Part shown: in pieces, positions 6,125-41,228 of the stretch
How positions within the stretch are numbered: the first letter of the stretch is position 1
How the letters are laid out: each line of letters begins with the position of its first letter
NCBI RefSeq assembly: GCF_000182745.2
Contig: NC_016027.1
Coordinates: forward strand, 1,181,001-1,245,000
Direction of reading: 5' to 3'
Length of the DNA stretch: 64,000 nt
Source: Komagataeibacter medellinensis NBRC 3288
Lineage (GTDB): Bacteria; Pseudomonadota; Alphaproteobacteria; Acetobacterales; Acetobacteraceae
Notes under the pieces: generated by a model
What the model was told of the DNA's origin: nothing
The model's input: the letters and a program-made list of their open reading frames with translations, nothing else
Database searches by the model: none
Translations under genes and position numbers: made by a program

Positions 6125-7417
6125 TCAGGCTCCGGGGCCAATATCCAGGCTGGCCTCGATCGCCCTGATTTCCGCCACGATCTCATCAGCCGTACGCGTG
6201 CCGCATGTCCGGGTCTGGGTAAGCAGGATGAACTCCACCGTCTTGGGCCGCGCGGAATGGCGCTGACGGCTTACGCGATAACGCTTGTAGCCGCGCGTAA
6301 AAACCTGCACCTGACCCCGCTCGCAGTTGGCACGCACCATGTCAGCCAGCGGTATGAAGCCATCCGTACTGTAACTAGTGGCGATCCAGCGCGTATCGAG
6401 CACGGACAGCAACTGCTGGTAGGCCGCAAGCGCCAGGACGCGATGGTTGTAGGCACTGCGCCGCGCGCTGCGCCAGTCCTGCCTTATGGCCGACTTGTCC
6501 CGCCCCGTGATCTTGGGGGCAAGGCAGGGCTGGTCCCACAAGGTTATGGTGTTGAGCACATGATAATTCGCACCATAGGGATGCTGGTTGTACGGCGGAT
6601 CGATGTAAGCAATGGCATTGTCCGCCATCACCAGCCCGGCAAGATTGGCGGCAAGATCCTGTGCGTCCATGCGCAGGACATGGTTGTCACGCCCGTTATC
6701 GATAAAGCGGGCCGGGCGAAGTTGCAGGTCAGCCGCGATGCGGTAGAGGGCAGTGCCAGTCCGGCCGCCCCACCCCCGGTGAAATCCCTTGAACAGCCCA
6801 CTGGTATTGCTGTTGTAACTGGCGCTGTACAGTAAGGGGGCCAGCAGGCTGGCCTTCTGTCCCACCGTCAGTAGGCCATCGTGCTCCCAGCGCACAATCC
6901 GCTCGCGGATGGCGTCAATCCGCATGCCATTCTTGCGCATATAGAACATCCGGTCGCGCGCAATATCGTAATGCACATCATCATCCGGGCACAGATGACG
7001 GGTCACCCACCCTTCCACCGGGGATAAGGCGTTGAGTTCGGCCACGACCTGTGCGTAACTGCGACCGCCATAGAACCAGGGGGCCGTCTGCATGCCCACA
7101 TGGCAGTAATTGAGCACCTCGCTATAAGGTTCCCAATCATTGGCCAACACGCGAAAGCCCAGACGCTTGGCCAGGCGGGAGACCACGCCGGTACCAGCAA
7201 ACAGGTCAATGAAGTCTGTCCGGGCCGGGTCCGCCCCTGTGGCGGCAATGGCCTGGGCGATCAGGCCCAGCAGCTTGCGCTTGTTGCCAATATAGGGGAT
7301 CAGCTGGCTGAACAGGTACTCATCAGTCAACACGGCAGAATGGCGCGCGGCATGCCATTCCATTGCTTCCATGGCGGCCATGCCATGCGCCCCGTCAAGG
7401 GCGGGGCGGCGGTTCAT
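6125..7417 (-). CDS. D12-class adenine-specific DNA methyltransferase
   Basis: A 430-residue N6-adenine DNA methyltransferase of the D12 (alpha) class. AdoMet-binding motif X is PYIGNKRKLL (41-50), motif I is DLFAGTG (71-77) and catalytic motif IV is DPPYNQ (273-278), in the motif order expected for this class. The YIGNK wording is closer to M.FokI-like D12 enzymes than to Dam. The first ~25 residues, Met- and Ala-rich, may not be translated; internal ATGs at 7381, 7372 and 7363 are possible starts. It starts 38 bases after the ccrM stop in the same direction, so it is probably the last gene of an rnhB-ccrM operon. No restriction endonuclease gene is next to it, so it looks solitary. The recognition sequence is unknown. 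Confidence 0.88.
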   Translation of the reverse strand: MNRRPALDGAHGMAAMEAMEWHAARHSAVLTDEYLFSQLIPYIGNKRKLLGLIAQAIAATGADPARTDFIDLFAGTGVVSRLAKRLGFRVLANDWEPYSEVLNYCHVGMQTAPWFYGGRSYAQVVAELNALSPVEGWVTRHLCPDDDVHYDIARDRMFYMRKNGMRIDAIRERIVRWEHDGLLTVGQKASLLAPLLYSASYNSNTSGLFKGFHRGWGGRTGTALYRIAADLQLRPARFIDNGRDNHVLRMDAQDLAANLAGLVMADNAIAYIDPPYNQHPYGANYHVLNTITLWDQPCLAPKITGRDKSAIRQDWRSARRSAYNHRVLALAAYQQLLSVLDTRWIATSYSTDGFIPLADMVRANCERGQVQVFTRGYKRYRVSRQRHSARPKTVEFILLTQTRTCGTRTADEIVAEIRAIEASLDIGPGA

Positions 7418-7455: not shown

Positions 7456-8559
7456 TCAGGATGCGACGGCCGCCTGTTCCGCACGGATATCACCACGCAG
7501 CACGTCAAGCTGCACCAGTTCGCCCTCACGCTCGAAATACCAGAACGTCCAGCCATTGCATGATGGCGCATTGGTCAACTGCGCGCCCATCTTGTGAATG
7601 GAGCCACGATGCCGCCCGCTGACCAGCGTGCCATCGGGCGAGACCGTGGCGCGCACACGCTTCTGCCGGTCCATTAGTACAGTGCCCGCAGGCACCATGC
7701 CGCGTTCCACCAACAGGCCAAAGGGCACGCGCGGGCTTTCGCGCCGGGCGGGCGTGGTCTGCACACTGTCCAGCGGCAGGGGTTTTTCGCGTCGGGCGCG
7801 GCCGATCGCGGCCTCTGCATAATCAGGATGGCGTTCAATGCCAATAAAGCGCCGACGCAGCCTGCGCGCCATGGCGGTGGTGGTACCGGTGCCGGTAAAG
7901 GGGTCCAGCACCACGTCATCCACATTGGTTGACGCTACCAGCACACGGTGCAGCAGACTTTCGGGCTTCTGGGTGGGGTGCAGTTTCAGGCCATGTTCAT
8001 TACGCAACCGCTCACCACCGGTGCATAGCGGCAGATACCAGTCCGAGCGCATCTGCACATCATCATTCAGCGCCTTCATGGCCTGGTAATTGAAGCGATA
8101 GCGGCTATCCGGCCCACGCGCCGCCCAGATCAGCGTTTCATGCGCGTTGGTAAAGCGGCGGCCCCGGAAATTGGGCATGGGGTTGGACTTGCGCCAGATC
8201 ACATCATTCAGGATCCAGAATCCCAGATCCTGCAGGATCGCGCCGATGCGGAAGATGTTGTGGTAGGAACCAATCACCCAGATCGTCCCATCCTTGCGCA
8301 GCAGGCGCCGTGCTTCGGTCAGCCACGCGCGAGTGAAGGCATCATAAGCCTGCAGGTCGGTGAATTTGTCCCAGTCATCATCCACACCATCAACGATGCT
8401 GTCATCGGGACGGCGCAGTTCACCGCGCAACTGAAGGTTGTATGGCGGATCAGCAAACACGCAGTCGATCGAAGCCGCCGGCAACGTCTTCATCATATCG
8501 ATACAGTCGCCCCGCAGCACCTGATCCAGGGGCAATTCCATCATAACCGCACCGCTCAT
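7456..8559 (-). CDS. ccrM: CcrM-type cell-cycle DNA methyltransferase (GANTC)
   Basis: A 367-residue beta-class N6-adenine methyltransferase: DPPYN (37-41) precedes the AdoMet motif DPFTGTGTT (219-227). The C-terminal 80 residues form the RAMA domain found in CcrM ([15 protein letters not shown], ending with an NGWTFWYFE stretch). CcrM enzymes methylate GANTC and act once per cell cycle in alphaproteobacteria. The ATG at 8559 overlaps the rnhB stop (ATGA, 8556-8559), so the two are translationally coupled; a longer open frame exists upstream but lies inside rnhB. Length fits the family (about 360). Five GANTC sites upstream of the operon suggest feedback by methylation (inference). Confidence 0.95.
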
Positions 8560-9221
8560 GAATTGTTCAGCATGATGGCTGCTCCGCGCTTGGGGGGGGA
8601 AGAAGGAGGAACGGCGGCCTGAAGGATCCGGCGCACCGTGCCGAAGGCTGCGCGGTGGTGGGGGCTTGCCCCGCGTGCCATCAGGCCCGAACGATGAATG
8701 GCGGTACCGTAGCCCGCGTTGCGTTCCCACCCGTAATCGGGCCAGCGCCGCGCAAGGCGGGTCATGAGCCGGTCACGGATGACTTTGGCCACAACGGACG
8801 CGGCCGAGATGGACAGGCTGATGGCATCCCCCCCCACGATGCATTGCGCCGGGCACCCGAAATCGGGCGCGGCGTTGCCATCGACAAGGACCAGTTCGGG
8901 GAGGTTGGGCAGGCGCCCCACCGCGCGCTGCATGGCAAGCCATGAGGCACGCAGGATGTTGTACCGCGCAATTTCAGCCACGGAGGCAGCCCCCACGCCG
9001 ATCAGAATGCCGGGGGTAGTGTGCAGCAGGTCGTACAACTGTTGCCGAACCGCAGGCCTGAGCTTTTTTGAATCGTCAAGCCTGTCAGCCAGCACGCCGG
9101 GCACGCTGCCGGGAAACATGACCGCCGCCGCGACGACCGGCCCGGCCAGCGGGCCGCGACCAACTTCGTCAACACCGGCAACCCGTCCCCCATGCGCGTA
9201 CTCAAGCGTGTAATCGGGCAT
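8556..9221 (-). CDS. rnhB: Ribonuclease HII
   Basis: A 221-residue RNase HII, which removes ribonucleotides and RNA primers from RNA-DNA hybrids. The family signature [16 protein letters not shown] (residues 14-29, with the metal-binding Asp18-Glu19), DDSKKL (49-54) and the DGN motif (Asp114) are all present, as is the [14 protein letters not shown] stretch (137-150). It is the first gene of the rnhB-ccrM-D12 methyltransferase operon; rnhB next to ccrM is a familiar alphaproteobacterial pairing. An AAGGA lies about 7 bases before the ATG at 9221. Confidence 0.95.
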
Positions 9222-9243
9222 CCATTCCTTCCTGACCAGATGC

Positions 9244-9369
9244 GAATCAGACTATGTCGGCCCGATTCGCACCAGATTTCCGTTCTGGAAGGATGGAAAC
9301 CATTTTTATGCAGGGTTGCGCAAGATGCTGTGGACTCATCGAGTCCCTTAAAATGAAAAAAAACGACTC
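9244..9369. promoter_or_regulatory. Cluster of five GANTC sites upstream of rnhB-ccrM
   Basis: CcrM target sites occur at 9244-9248 (GAATC), 9264-9268 (GATTC), 9333-9337 (GACTC), 9341-9345 (GAGTC) and 9365-9369 (GACTC). Two sit in the arms of an inverted repeat (TGCGAATC 9241-9248 and GATTCGCA 9264-9271) and two form GACTC-ATC-GAGTC. At about 60 percent GC one site per roughly 280 bases is expected. This is the only upstream region available to the rnhB-ccrM operon. The last site overlaps the CsbD-gene terminator. I find no full CtrA-type TTAA-N7-TTAA box; a single TTAA is at 9348-9351. Confidence 0.55.
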
Positions 9370-9376
9370 GGAGCCG
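9354..9376 (-). terminator. Intrinsic terminator after the csbD-like gene
   Basis: Read on the minus strand, a short stem ACGGC/GTCGT around TCCGA is followed at once by eight T residues. It starts a few bases after the stop codon of the CsbD-like gene. The stem is short (five pairs, one G-U), but the T-run is strong. Confidence 0.55.
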
Positions 9377-9378
9377 TC

Positions 9379-9681
9379 TCAGCCCTTGCGACGGGGGATG
9401 AAAATCAGGCCCATGATCGTGCCCAGCACACCGGCAATAGCCAGCGAGAACAGCGGGCGCTCGCGCACGAAGGTGACCGCGCGCTCGATCCTGCCTTCAT
9501 TTTCCTCATACAGGTCGGCAAATTCCTGACGCGCCATGCCTGCAAGCTGGTCCACCTTGCCTTCGGCCTGCATGCCCATGTCGCCCGTCAGGCCACCGAC
9601 CGCATCCTTGACCCGGCCAATACCCTGATCGACCACGCCTTTTGTCTTTTCGCCCAGAACGTTCATCTTATCATCCGCCAC
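9379..9681 (-). CDS. CsbD-like stress protein with C-terminal membrane anchor
   Basis: About 100 residues. I start at the GTG at 9681 (ADDKMNVLGEKTKG...) because AAGGA lies nine bases upstream; a longer frame to 9738 and an ATG at 9666 are alternatives. The first part has the amphipathic GIGRVKDAVGGLTGD pattern of CsbD proteins, which are abundant small general-stress proteins of unknown activity. The last 25 residues form one hydrophobic helix (PLFSLAIAGVLGTIMGLIF) ending in PRRKG, as in DUF883/ElaB-type membrane anchors. The gene at 21085 is a clear relative. It is transcribed divergently from the MFS gene and ends at a terminator. Confidence 0.7.
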   Translation of the reverse strand: MADDKMNVLGEKTKGVVDQGIGRVKDAVGGLTGDMGMQAEGKVDQLAGMARQEFADLYEENEGRIERAVTFVRERPLFSLAIAGVLGTIMGLIFIPRRKG

Positions 9682-9780
9682 GATTGCTTTTCCTTCATGC
9701 TGGTATCGCCGTTGTGTAGCCTGGATCCCTAACGCCACGATGGCATGCAGGGTTCCGTACCCGCTATACCATGCCTGATC

Positions 9781-11253
9781 ATGCCTTCCCTGACGACTGT
9801 CCAGTCCACCTCACCTGCCCTCCCTGGCGGCATGGCGCCCATGTCCACGCCGCGCAAGAGACTGATGGCGCTTATCGTGGCCAGCCTCATGCTGATGGAG
9901 CAGCTTGATGGCACGGCGCTGACCACAGCCCTGCCTGCCATCGCGCATGATTTCCATGTGGGCATCCCCGCCACCTCCATCACGCTTACGGTGTATATGC
10001 TGGGGCTGGCTGCGCTGATCCCGGCTTCGGGCTATATGGCCGAACGATTTGGCAGCAGGCTTACGCTACGCTGGGCCATCGGGCTGTTCCTGTCGGGATC
10101 GCTCATCTGCGCCCGTGCGCACAGCCTGCCGGTACTGGCAATCGCACGCCTGGTGCAGGGTGCTGGCGGGGCAATGATGGTGCCGGTTGGCCGACTGGTG
10201 ATCCTGCGCAGCGTGGCCAAGGCGGAACTCCTGTCCATCATGGCATGGGTCATGCTGCCCGCCACCATCGGTCCCATGGCGGGACCGGTGCTGGGCGGCG
10301 TGCTGACATCGTGGCTGTCATGGCGGTGGATCTTCTACATCAACATCCCACTCGGACTACTGGCCATTGTGCTGACCGGCCGGTTCATCCCCCAGATCAG
10401 GACTACCCGCCCACCCCCGTTTGACCTGAAGGGCAACATCCTGTCCGCCACCGCGCTGGGAGGGCTGATATTCGGCATGGAACTGCTGGGTCATGGCCAG
10501 ACCGCGCGCCTGGCGGGCATAGGGCTGGGGCTACTGGCCCCGATGGCGGCACTGGCCTATATCCGCCATGCGCGTGGTACGGCGCACCCGGTGCTCGACC
10601 TGTCACTGCTGCGCATTCCCACCTTCCGTGTTTCCGTGCTTGCGGGGGGACTGACACGCATCGCCACGGCGGGGACCATCTTCCTGCTGCCTTCCCTGCT
10701 ACAGGTTCGCTTTGGCGCCAGCGCGGCACAGAGCGGGCTGGTCACCTTCCTTGCCCCCATGGGGGCGCTGGCCATGCGGCTTGTGGTCTCGCATGCTTAC
10801 CGTGGACTGGGCTTTCGGCGCGTGATGTGCGCGGGCAGTCTGGCGCTGCCGGGCATGTGCCTGCTGCTGGCCCTGCTGCGCCCAGGCACCATACCCGACT
10901 GGCTCCTGCTGCTGCTTGCCTTCAATGGCATGGGCCAGACACTGCTGTTCACCGGCTACAATACCATTGCCTATGCCGACATGCCGGCCGCGCGCATGAG
11001 TGCGGCAACCAGCCTTTACGCCACCTGCCAGCAAACCATGCTGACACTGGGCATATGCATGGCGGCAGCCATGTTGGGTATGGCGCAGGCGCTGCTGCCC
11101 CCGCCATGGCGCCTGCACGACTACAGCGTGGCCTTCATCGCATGCGGGGTGGTGGCGGTGGGGGCACTGCCACTTCTGCTGCGCCTGTCACCGGATGCGG
11201 GGGCAAGCGTGAGCGGCCATGGTGGCCCGAAAAACGCAAACAAATCGAAATGA
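9781..11253 (+). CDS. MFS drug exporter, DHA2/MdtD-like
   Basis: A 490-residue major facilitator of the DHA2 (EmrB/QacA) family with about 12-14 membrane helices. The motif LVQGAGGAMMVPVGRLVIL matches the wording of E. coli MdtD, and GPVLGGVLTSWLSWRWIFYINIPLG is the usual antiporter motif C region (my division of that stretch is by eye). D and T residues in the first helix (MEQLDGTALTTALP) fit this family. Start is uncertain: ATGs at 9745, 9781, 9832 and 9841 all lack a strong ribosome site. It precedes an mdtABC-like operon by about 180 bases; in E. coli mdtD follows mdtC, so the order here is different. Confidence 0.85.
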   Translation: MPSLTTVQSTSPALPGGMAPMSTPRKRLMALIVASLMLMEQLDGTALTTALPAIAHDFHVGIPATSITLTVYMLGLAALIPASGYMAERFGSRLTLRWAIGLFLSGSLICARAHSLPVLAIARLVQGAGGAMMVPVGRLVILRSVAKAELLSIMAWVMLPATIGPMAGPVLGGVLTSWLSWRWIFYINIPLGLLAIVLTGRFIPQIRTTRPPPFDLKGNILSATALGGLIFGMELLGHGQTARLAGIGLGLLAPMAALAYIRHARGTAHPVLDLSLLRIPTFRVSVLAGGLTRIATAGTIFLLPSLLQVRFGASAAQSGLVTFLAPMGALAMRLVVSHAYRGLGFRRVMCAGSLALPGMCLLLALLRPGTIPDWLLLLLAFNGMGQTLLFTGYNTIAYADMPAARMSAATSLYATCQQTMLTLGICMAAAMLGMAQALLPPPWRLHDYSVAFIACGVVAVGALPLLLRLSPDAGASVSGHGGPKNANKSK

Positions 11254-24704: not shown

Positions 24705-25724
24705 TCAGAACGGCTCGTCGAGCCTCTTCGCCAGATCTTCGATATTTTCCGGCGGCCAGGCCGGGACATTCATACCCAGTGAAAGCCCCATGGCAGTCAG
24801 GACTTCCTTGATCTCGTTGAGCGACTTGCGGCCGAAGTTCGGCGTGCGCAGCATCTCTTGCTCGGTCTTCTGAACCAGATCACCGATATAGACGATGTTG
24901 TCGTTCTTCAGGCAGTTGGCGCTACGAACCGACAGCTCCAGTTCATCCACCTTGCGCAGCAGGTTGCGGTTGAACGGCAGATCGTCCTGCGGTTCTTCCG
25001 TGCGCACCGTGCGCGGCTCATCGAAGTTGATGAACAGCTGGAGCTGGTCCTGCAGAATCCGCGCGGCAAGTGCCACGGCATCTTCAGGCGTTACCGCACC
25101 GTTGGTCTCGACTGTCAGCAGCAGGCGGTCATAATCAGTGACCTGACCCACGCGGGTCTGCTCGACCTTGTAGGACACGCGGCGCACGGGCGAGTAGATG
25201 GCATCAACCGGGATTAGGCCGATCGGCGCATCTTCCGGGCGGTTGGCCGCTGCCGGAACATACCCCTTGCCCATGTTCACGGTGAACTCCATCCCGAACT
25301 TCACCCCTTCATCAAGGGTACAAATCACGAGATCTGGGTTCATGACCTCAATGTCATGCCCGGTCTGGATCTGGCCGGCACGCACTTCACCGGGGCCAGT
25401 GGCCGTCAGCACCATGCGCTTGGGGCCTTCACCATGCATCCGCAACGCGAGCTGCTTGATGTTGAGCACGATATCGGTCACGTCTTCACGAACACCCGCC
25501 ACCGACGAGAATTCATGCAGTACGCCGTCAATCTGGATTGCCGTAACCGCAGCCCCCTGCAGGGACGACAGCAGAACCCGACGGATCGCGTTACCCAGCG
25601 TCATGCCAAAGCCGCGTTCCAGCGGTTCGGCAACAACTGTAGCAATGCGTGAAGGTTCCGCCCCCGGTTCGACTTCCAGCTTTTCCGGCTTGATCAGGGA
25701 TTGCCAGTTTTTCTGGAGGACCAA
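24705..25724 (-). CDS. rpoA: RNA polymerase alpha subunit
   Basis: A 339-residue alpha subunit. The N-terminal domain has [21 protein letters not shown] for dimer and beta/beta-prime assembly. The C-terminal domain (about 255-320) has the [15 protein letters not shown] helix and the [13 protein letters not shown] stretch that bind UP-element DNA and activators. The start codon is TTG at 25724, with AAGG eight bases upstream and no in-frame ATG that keeps the conserved [17 protein letters not shown] start. Long leader (127 bases) after rpsK contains two palindromes. Confidence 0.97.
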
Positions 25725-40814: not shown

Positions 40815-41032
40815 ACGCCTTTCCCGATCCTTACAAAATTCGGCCGGCCAACCCCATATCTGGTTGCCGACTGTCGTTCACAACAAAACCCCAACGAATG
40901 ACAACCATCCGTTCGGGCATCATATTTACATCCGGCCTGGGCAGCCCGATTCCCGGACTGCGGCACCGCATGTCTGCATGCTGCATTCGACGGCCAACAA
41001 CGTCTTTCAGACAGGGCTAGCCGAGGGCGCGT

Positions 41033-41061
41033 TACCTACGGGCAAACTGACCAAAAGTCAA
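41033..41061 (-). promoter_or_regulatory. Predicted promoter of the str operon (rpsL)
   Basis: On the minus strand TTGACT (41061-41056), a 17-base spacer and TAGGTA (41038-41033) are followed by ACGCGCCCTCGG. The -35 is good and the -10 weak, but CGCGCCCTC after it is identical to the sequence after the rpsM -10. A weak -10 with a GC-rich discriminator is typical of ppGpp/DksA-sensitive ribosomal promoters. Confidence 0.5.
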
Positions 41062-41185
41062 GCCTTACGCAGGATTCGCTAGCAGTCCGACAGAACGACT
41101 CTGTTCCAGCGGACTCGGAGCACCGCTCCGTCAGGGCGCTGAATACCGCCTGAATCGGATGGTGACAATAGTGCAGCACCGAATC

Positions 41186-41217
41186 ATGCCAGATACCGAC
41201 CATTCGGCATCTGGCAT
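41186..41217 (-). terminator. Large hairpin just after rpoC
   Basis: Arms 41186-41199 and 41204-41217 (ATGCCAGAT with ATCTGGCAT plus CCGA/TCGG) form a 14-pair stem with a four-base loop, 11 bases after the rpoC stop. The single imperfect pair is G-U in the minus-strand RNA but A-C in the plus-strand RNA, so it fits a minus-strand transcript. There is no U-run, so it may need Rho or act as a 3-prime stability element. Confidence 0.5.
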
Positions 41218-41228
41218 TTCTCTCGTAT

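Follow-up and report, generated by a model that had tools for sequence, protein, structure and literature searches.

Most work on how CcrM, the adenine methyltransferase of GANTC sites, limits its own activity concerns Caulobacter, in which ccrM is activated by CtrA. In the accessible parts of the published accounts, the ccrM promoter of Caulobacter crescentus carries two GANTC sites, is activated by CtrA and is active when hemimethylated (PMC10073500, PMC2217572); one description holds that the gene is activated from hemimethylated DNA alone (PMC2217572), another that GANTC methylation most probably influences it (PMC3973325). A denser arrangement is known from the gcrA promoter region of Agrobacterium tumefaciens, which holds six GANTC sites in 250 bp and is less active when methylated, even in Escherichia coli (PMC11514494). 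At methylated promoters served by GcrA and sigma-70, the sites follow an extended motif, YGAKTCG, cited in the portion of PMC7987155 open to us. GANTC has also been counted in promoter windows of 500 bp (Brilli et al., 2010; PMC2877005), counts from which, according to those authors, methylation control could not be derived. The literature that we searched, subscription papers excluded, contained no report of GANTC in connection with Komagataeibacter or with rnhB and ccrM together.

Here, we analyse the region upstream of rnhB-ccrM in Komagataeibacter medellinensis NBRC 3288. The window, a 64,000-nucleotide stretch, covers positions 1181001-1245000 within a 3.51-Mb genome, and the coordinates below are positions in it. 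As in C. crescentus, so far as the accessible accounts describe it, CcrM targets lie in the presumed promoter and leader of CcrM's own gene and methylation feedback is presumed. Unlike in C. crescentus, there are five sites instead of two, the operon promoter would lie upstream of rnhB, no full CtrA box is present, ChpT and SciP were not found by Pfam, and a leader masking the Shine-Dalgarno sequence is predicted. The locus shares with the gcrA promoter of A. tumefaciens a dense GANTC array at a cell-cycle regulator (PMC11514494), but here the array stands on rnhB-ccrM, whereas Komagataeibacter gcrA has one to three sites in 250 bp: one, at -83, is present in all 14 loci examined, three of which have one or two others. 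With the methylated GcrA/sigma-70 promoters it has in common an encoded GcrA and, in the acetous acetic acid bacteria, array sites enriched for CGANTCG; it differs in that the sites of the presumed promoter spacer do not carry the YGAKTCG motif. The array is real and conserved, and we regard it as a variant of a type of control already known rather than a new class of system.

The rnhB-ccrM locus and its GANTC array

The genes and the gap between them are as follows.

7456-8559, minus strand: ccrM, GANTC adenine methyltransferase (NCBIfam NF050803, 2.4e-187, 622 bits; Pfam N6_N4_Mtase and RAMA)
8556-9221, minus strand: rnhB, ribonuclease HII, first gene of the operon (NCBIfam NF000595, above cut-off; Pfam RNase_HII)
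9222-9378, minus strand: intergenic region, presumed promoter and leader, with the GANTC array (five sites in 157 bp)
9360-9380, minus strand: intrinsic terminator of the csbD-like gene (read from 9380 to 9360)
9379-9738, minus strand: csbD-like gene, upstream and co-directional (Pfam CsbD)

The NF050803 score of CcrM, obtained with 7456-8550 as the query, lies below that model's cut-off of 830 bits; its best named relative is that of Komagataeibacter xylinus (95% identical). The limits of the csbD-like gene are those of the open reading frame, and its true start may be more internal. Because the stop codon of rnhB shares the tetranucleotide ATGA with the start codon of ccrM, the 157-bp gap is the sole upstream region of the operon, as an earlier reading made from the sequence alone (the sequence-only reading) had proposed. 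Directly downstream of ccrM lies a D12-class adenine methyltransferase-like gene (6125-7417, minus strand; Pfam MethyltransfD12, no NCBIfam match).

The five sites, numbered also from the rnhB start, are unstranded.

9244-9248: GANTC site at -27, in the 3' arm of the predicted leader hairpin; fits YGAKTCG; in 18 of 19 genus genomes
9264-9268: GANTC site at -47, in the 5' arm of the same hairpin; fits YGAKTCG; in 19 of 19
9333-9337: GANTC site at -116, in a small palindrome in the presumed promoter spacer; in 19 of 19
9341-9345: GANTC site at -124, in the same palindrome and presumed spacer; in 19 of 19
9365-9369: GANTC site at -148, within the terminator of the csbD-like gene; fits YGAKTCG; GAGTCGTTTTTT in 19 of 19

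These are the positions that the sequence-only reading had given. It had also described a perfect 8-nt inverted repeat with two sites, which we locate at 9241-9248 and 9264-9271, and a GACTC-ATC-GAGTC pair, which extends to GGACTC-ATC-GAGTCC (9332-9337 and 9341-9346).

Its estimate that chance would supply fewer than one site, and its condition that a density equal to that of random intergenic DNA would refute the idea, could be addressed with a simple gene finder of our own, run on 464 kb of the genome (the window and 20 segments of 20 kb). It delimited 191 intergenic regions no shorter than 60 bp (64,047 bp in all), with 1.72 GANTC per kb as against 1.10 per kb elsewhere. At the intergenic rate, calculated with this cluster and the one before rpsL excluded, 0.24 sites are expected in 157 bp and five are present (Poisson P for at least five, 6e-6); five sites in 126 bp are reached by two of the 191 regions, both inside the window, which as a whole is depleted in GANTC (82 observed, 220 expected from shuffles). 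The value of 6e-6 overstates the case, because inverted repeats supply sites in pairs, which are not independent since GANTC reads alike on both strands except at N, and because site 9365 lies in a terminator. Counted as about three independent events (two inverted-repeat pairs and the terminator site), the array has P = 0.002 for at least three. The sequence-only reading had overlooked this non-independence and the terminator site, as well as the leader RNA structure and the arrays elsewhere in the class. The main strength of the case is the comparison across relatives, not the density in one gap.

Conservation within Komagataeibacter and among acetic acid bacteria

The comparison of upstream regions across Acetobacteraceae proposed in the sequence-only reading found the sites conserved in close relatives, with all five kept in 18 of 19 Komagataeibacter genomes and the -27 site lost in one; neither of the two outcomes that this reading had named as refuting was thus observed. 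GGACTCGAnGAGTC, GCGAATCGGGC and GAGTCGTTTTTT occur in all 19, and seven have a sixth GANTC at about -57. Identity in the leader alignment is 99.5% over the 10 GANTC columns and 79.7% over the 42 others, the two sites concerned also belonging to the hairpin. At the terminator, GAGTCG is constant across the genus though the opposite arm varies, which hints that even site 9365 may be kept for its own sake.

For the family, 99 loci were searched, with a usable rnhB in 81. The acetous set comprises 46 loci from Komagataeibacter, Gluconacetobacter, Acetobacter, Gluconobacter, Asaia, Swaminathania, Brytella and Bombella (including L052), probably representing 45 genomes (L001 and L097 are probably one). 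Within 170 bp upstream of rnhB, all 46 carry three to nine GANTC sites; the other 35 relatives have zero to two, and none reaches three. The acetous arrays exceed the mostly coding background of the same loci 14- to 52-fold. Three or more sites occur in only 3 of 24,670 background windows of these 46 loci, and in 103 of 20,522 windows of 32 loci from the remaining Acetobacteraceae and metagenome-assembled genomes. When the 16 palindromic pentamers were compared, GANTC alone was strongly enriched in the acetous leaders (29.0 per kb against 1.17 in the genome sample, 25-fold), the next being TTNAA (7.4 against 1.85, 4-fold).

The layout of the sites differs by genus: GAGTC-GATTC-GATTC in Gluconobacter, an 11-bp inverted repeat carrying two sites in most Acetobacter and the leader hairpin in Komagataeibacter. 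Spacings of 10-12 bp were counted 27 times in 24 chosen loci, compared with 7.7 under random placement. Given these genus-specific layouts and the enrichment of GANTC only, the cluster evidently persists while its arrangement turns over.

Gene spacing varies together with the position of the sites. In the acetous genera, rnhB and ccrM are separated by -7 to 17 bp, and two of the 46 loci have one site each in the 170 bp upstream of ccrM. Among the 51 other loci of the family, the gap is 51-146 bp in 30 of the 33 where rnhB was found, and the 170 bp before ccrM hold zero to three sites, with none in 21 of the 51. Because the closed gap of the acetous genera coincides with an array upstream of rnhB, the array appears to follow the promoter, and the simplest reading is that it belongs to whichever promoter serves ccrM. 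Two Commensalibacter and KSS8 (L024), with a closed gap but one site only upstream of rnhB, speak against a strict rule. Four deeper Acetobacteraceae loci (L013, L014, L021 and L054) have a GANTC at about -30 upstream of rnhB, followed by TGCTAT, TGCTAC or TGCGAT; this is perhaps a GcrA-type rnhB promoter, their other sites lying farther off.

Arrays between rnhB and ccrM across the class

A search across the Alphaproteobacteria covered 152 genomes, 107 of them with ccrM, and the upstream region was examined in 40. The 36 genomes with rnhB just upstream have a median gap of 112 bp, measured up to the first aligned CcrM residue, with a mean of 3.1 sites. GANTC reaches 22.4 per kb in these gaps and 2.1 per kb outside; 31 gaps have at least two sites, 23 at least three and one has none, compared with at least three in 19 of 4,545 windows of 170 bp outside. 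TTGAC-N1-6-GANTC is present in 27 of 38 class loci, and a tandem second GANTC follows in 17. Mononucleotide shuffles gave 0.1 single and no tandem occurrences, and 400 kb of the K. medellinensis genome, searched on both strands, four single and no tandem ones.

The distance from TTGAC to GANTC has maxima at 8 (12 cases) and 19 (16 cases), with about 11 bp from one site to the next. Of 19 distal sites, 17 extend into GANTCAnnnT, touching a -10-like CAnnnT. The A and T of this hexamer are the -10 positions of greatest weight. By this comparison, the class array is located between rnhB and ccrM and often takes the form TTGAC-GANTC-GANTC, of which, as of the array itself, we found no description in the literature searched, subscription papers lying outside its scope. 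The spacing of about 8 and 19 bases provides a concrete promoter signature for mutagenesis. CGANTCG is no commoner among the class gap sites (14 of 111) than among those outside (19 of 107), and a CtrA box, TTAA-N7-TTAA with no or one mismatch, occurs in 4 of the 36 gaps. Six class loci (L182, L185, L192, L199, L204 and L211) have six to eight GANTC within a 170-bp stretch upstream of ccrM, exceeding the five of the K. medellinensis array.

Candidate promoter and regulators

By analogy with the class promoters, two candidate elements can be placed in the Komagataeibacter gap.

9348-9353, minus strand: weak candidate -35 (TTTTAA), without weight-matrix support
9325-9330, minus strand: candidate -10 (CAGCAT), a CAnnnT as in the class promoters

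The 35-bp core around the candidate -10 is identical in 17 of 19 genus genomes. We derived a matrix from 16 matches to the class promoter and tried it on 27 loci; it scored 13.7 in Asaia and 13.5 in Swaminathania, above all 60 shuffles. In three Komagataeibacter loci it reached -4.2 to -6.0, no better than shuffles, and it found no match in the Gluconacetobacter, Acetobacter, Gluconobacter, Brytella and Bombella loci tried. The combination of a TTGAC -35, GANTC at about 8 and 19 and CAnnnT is present in Asaia and Swaminathania and not in Komagataeibacter. As the matrix matched those two genera only, the Komagataeibacter -35 and -10 coordinates rest on analogy, by which we infer the position of the promoter. 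TAAAAA (9308-9303, minus strand) is an alternative candidate -10. When 8500-9800 was scanned for consensus promoters, the leader gave no sigma-70 site, and the single match, at the rnhB/ccrM junction (8569-8540), was taken as chance. Two further candidates were rejected: a DnaA-like GTCCACA adjoining site 9333, compared with the motif form given in the accessible text of PMC4287350, is altered in two loci (L088 and L101) and absent in Gluconacetobacter, and a leader peptide beginning at the conserved AAAAATGG has no ribosome site and is not retained in Gluconobacter.

The sequence-only reading had remarked that a CtrA box was not evident. We searched the 200 bp upstream of rnhB for full boxes and obtained a best TTAA-N7-TTAA with two mismatches in all 20 Komagataeibacter loci, and none with fewer than two in the 46 acetous loci. 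The genome encodes a CtrA-like regulator (301 bits, model cut-off 350; next response regulator, 167). ChpT (PF10090) and SciP (PF06627) have no Pfam match in it and were detected in controls that included Caulobacter. The CtrA phosphorelay may, on this gene content, be reduced in this organism. GcrA is encoded in all 19 genus genomes (PF07750, above cut-off; the NCBIfam GcrA model gives 86 bits, below its cut-off of 280). Its extended motif, YGAKTCG, fits three of the five sites (9244, 9264 and 9365); the two in the presumed spacer (9333 and 9341), a spacer that is itself placed by analogy, do not match. In the acetous loci, CGANTCG flanks 104 of 227 array sites, compared with 14 of 317 other sites.

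Predicted leader RNA

The leader is predicted to fold over the start of rnhB, with the following elements.

9287-9296, minus strand: pyrimidine block (CCATCCTTCC), the predicted pairing partner of the rnhB Shine-Dalgarno sequence
9222-9232, minus strand: rnhB ribosome-binding region (GGAAGGAATGG), predicted to be masked
9239-9273, minus strand: inner leader hairpin of 13 pairs, GANTC in both arms (96.8% of cells paired)

In the predicted fold, the GANTC hairpin lies inside an outer stem formed by CCATCCTTCC and GGAAGGAATGG. For the 97 nt between 9318 and rnhB, the folding energy is -36.3 kcal/mol, with z -4.1 (three runs: -4.1, -4.5 and -4.8), the second lowest of 153 sampled genome leaders; the ribosome site is equally paired in 22 of the 153, so that masking as such is not rare. 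Another unusually strong fold in this sample is the leader at 25724 (minus strand; z -4.5). In the 32 loci folded, seven Komagataeibacter gave z -4.3 to -6.2 and nine Acetobacter -1.6 to -6.2; one Gluconacetobacter, one Acetobacter, two Gluconobacter and three Bombella gave -0.6 to -2.0, and Asaia and Swaminathania about +0.6, no better than shuffles despite five GANTC.

Both arms that form the masking pairing differ among genera yet remain complementary. Native arm pairs average -20.7 kcal/mol, compared with -16.7 for cross-genus swaps, and in five genera (the Asaia group left out) swaps were as good as native in 10 of 2000 draws. In three genera, nevertheless, about 20% of swaps are as good as the native mean, and in the Asaia group 26% are, because a ribosome site rich in purines can pair with any tract of pyrimidines. 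The inner hairpin, over 17 distinct genus sequences, has 96.8% of cells paired and one two-sided pair change (A-U to G-C). One such pair is equalled in 428 of 500 shuffles, whereas the number of cells with a two-sided change is equalled in only 4 of 500. A search of Rfam returned a single match (E 4.8), far under its gathering score. Taken together, the folding models make an SD-masking rnhB leader likely. Double-stranded RNA stems with GAAUC/GAUUC or GACUC/GAGUC, as predicted in Komagataeibacter and Acetobacter, could hypothetically be bound by CcrM as mimics of its DNA target; as a general operator mimicry this was rejected, such stems being absent from the Gluconacetobacter, Gluconobacter and Bombella folds.

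Discussion

Our comparison indicates that the GANTC sites upstream of rnhB-ccrM are selected as GANTC, are conserved in the genus and are evidently placed where the ccrM promoter is expected. We consider it rather probable that this control region is a methylation-sensing array of CcrM's own targets, spread over promoter and 5' leader, and give similar credence to methylation-dependent control in one direction or the other; negative feedback by full methylation seems to us somewhat more plausible than positive. The sequence-only reading had suggested methylation feedback, possibly through GcrA, as the main input, a view that the sequence evidence supports in part. Passage of the replication fork would leave the array hemimethylated, a state that would allow or aid transcription, probably with GcrA and sigma-70, until newly made CcrM remethylates the sites and returns the promoter to a fully methylated, less active state. 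With dnaA at position 199 of the contig and ccrM at 1.19 of 3.14 Mb, the fork would reach ccrM, and leave it hemimethylated, well after initiation, provided that the contig represents the complete chromosome. In the acetous acetic acid bacteria, methylation sensing would probably substitute for the CtrA input, and the leader RNA, by masking the rnhB ribosome-binding site, with ccrM translation coupled to that of rnhB through ATGA, would add a second control.

The observations do not all point this way. The class promoter matrix fails in Komagataeibacter, pairing of the RNA may be what keeps two of the five sites and the terminator a third, and the presumed-spacer sites are unlike YGAKTCG, just as the class gap sites are without CGANTCG enrichment. 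Deeper Acetobacteraceae have only zero to three sites before ccrM, and three closed-gap lineages a single one upstream of rnhB. It could instead be that the inverted repeats are kept for the RNA, as a thermometer- or riboswitch-like leader or the target of a translational repressor that works by pairing the rnhB ribosome-binding site, and that the GANTC pairs are in part by-products of its stems. The low z of the leader here (-4.1 to -4.8), the z values in Komagataeibacter and Acetobacter, the advantage of native arms over swaps, arms that change and stay complementary, and the 96.8% pairing of the inner hairpin all favour such an account. We nevertheless hold it to be unlikely, since Asaia and Swaminathania keep five GANTC with z about +0.6, seven more loci fold only weakly, a fifth to a quarter of swaps do as well in four groups, masked ribosome sites are not rare, Rfam offers no notable match, the one two-sided genus pair is matched by most shuffles, and GANTC enrichment is present in the gaps of other families too.

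A different direction of control would follow if GcrA, bound to methylated or hemimethylated GANTC, recruited sigma-70 and so made the feedback on ccrM positive instead of negative. GcrA is present throughout the genus, CGANTCG flanks almost half of the array sites in the acetous loci, and in the accessible text of PMC4287350 Caulobacter start sites with GANTC between -35 and -10 switch on at 40-60 min; but the presumed-spacer sites are without the extended motif and the class gap sites are not CGANTCG-enriched, so that we regard positive feedback as possible, if somewhat doubtful. Chance and composition, by which AT-richer intergenic DNA, a terminator and two palindromes merely happen to hold GANTC, gain something from the small number of independent events here (about three, P about 0.002) and from the second cluster in the window. 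This explanation is very improbable in view of the arrays in all 46 acetous loci, set against 3 of 24,670 background windows, of the 15 other palindromic pentamers without comparable enrichment and of the class gaps.

Returning to the methylation-sensing array, one may tentatively picture it as a portable device of alphaproteobacterial ccrM, with CcrM's own sites one helical turn apart in the spacer and -10, that was rebuilt upstream of rnhB over an SD-masking leader once ccrM had joined rnhB and the CtrA circuit had been reduced, so that the same base pairs would serve as DNA sensor and as RNA lock; this remains the more speculative part of our proposal. Since acetic acid bacteria have CcrM and GcrA and no full CtrA box at the operon, and ChpT and SciP are undetected in this genome, they would allow methylation feedback on ccrM to be tested alone. 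The predicted leader RNA would represent an independent second layer of control.

A second GANTC cluster before rpsL

The cluster of the ccrM operon is not unique, as the rpoC-rpsL gap upstream of the str operon (40815-41228) also has a group of five sites. GANTC occurs in this gap at 40948, 41073, 41097, 41112, 41152 and 41181, and the five-site part (41073-41185) holds three to five sites in all 19 genus genomes and five in 15 of them. One site lies 10 nt before TATTGT (TGATTCGGTGCTGCACTATTGT), in a possible resemblance to a GcrA-type promoter.
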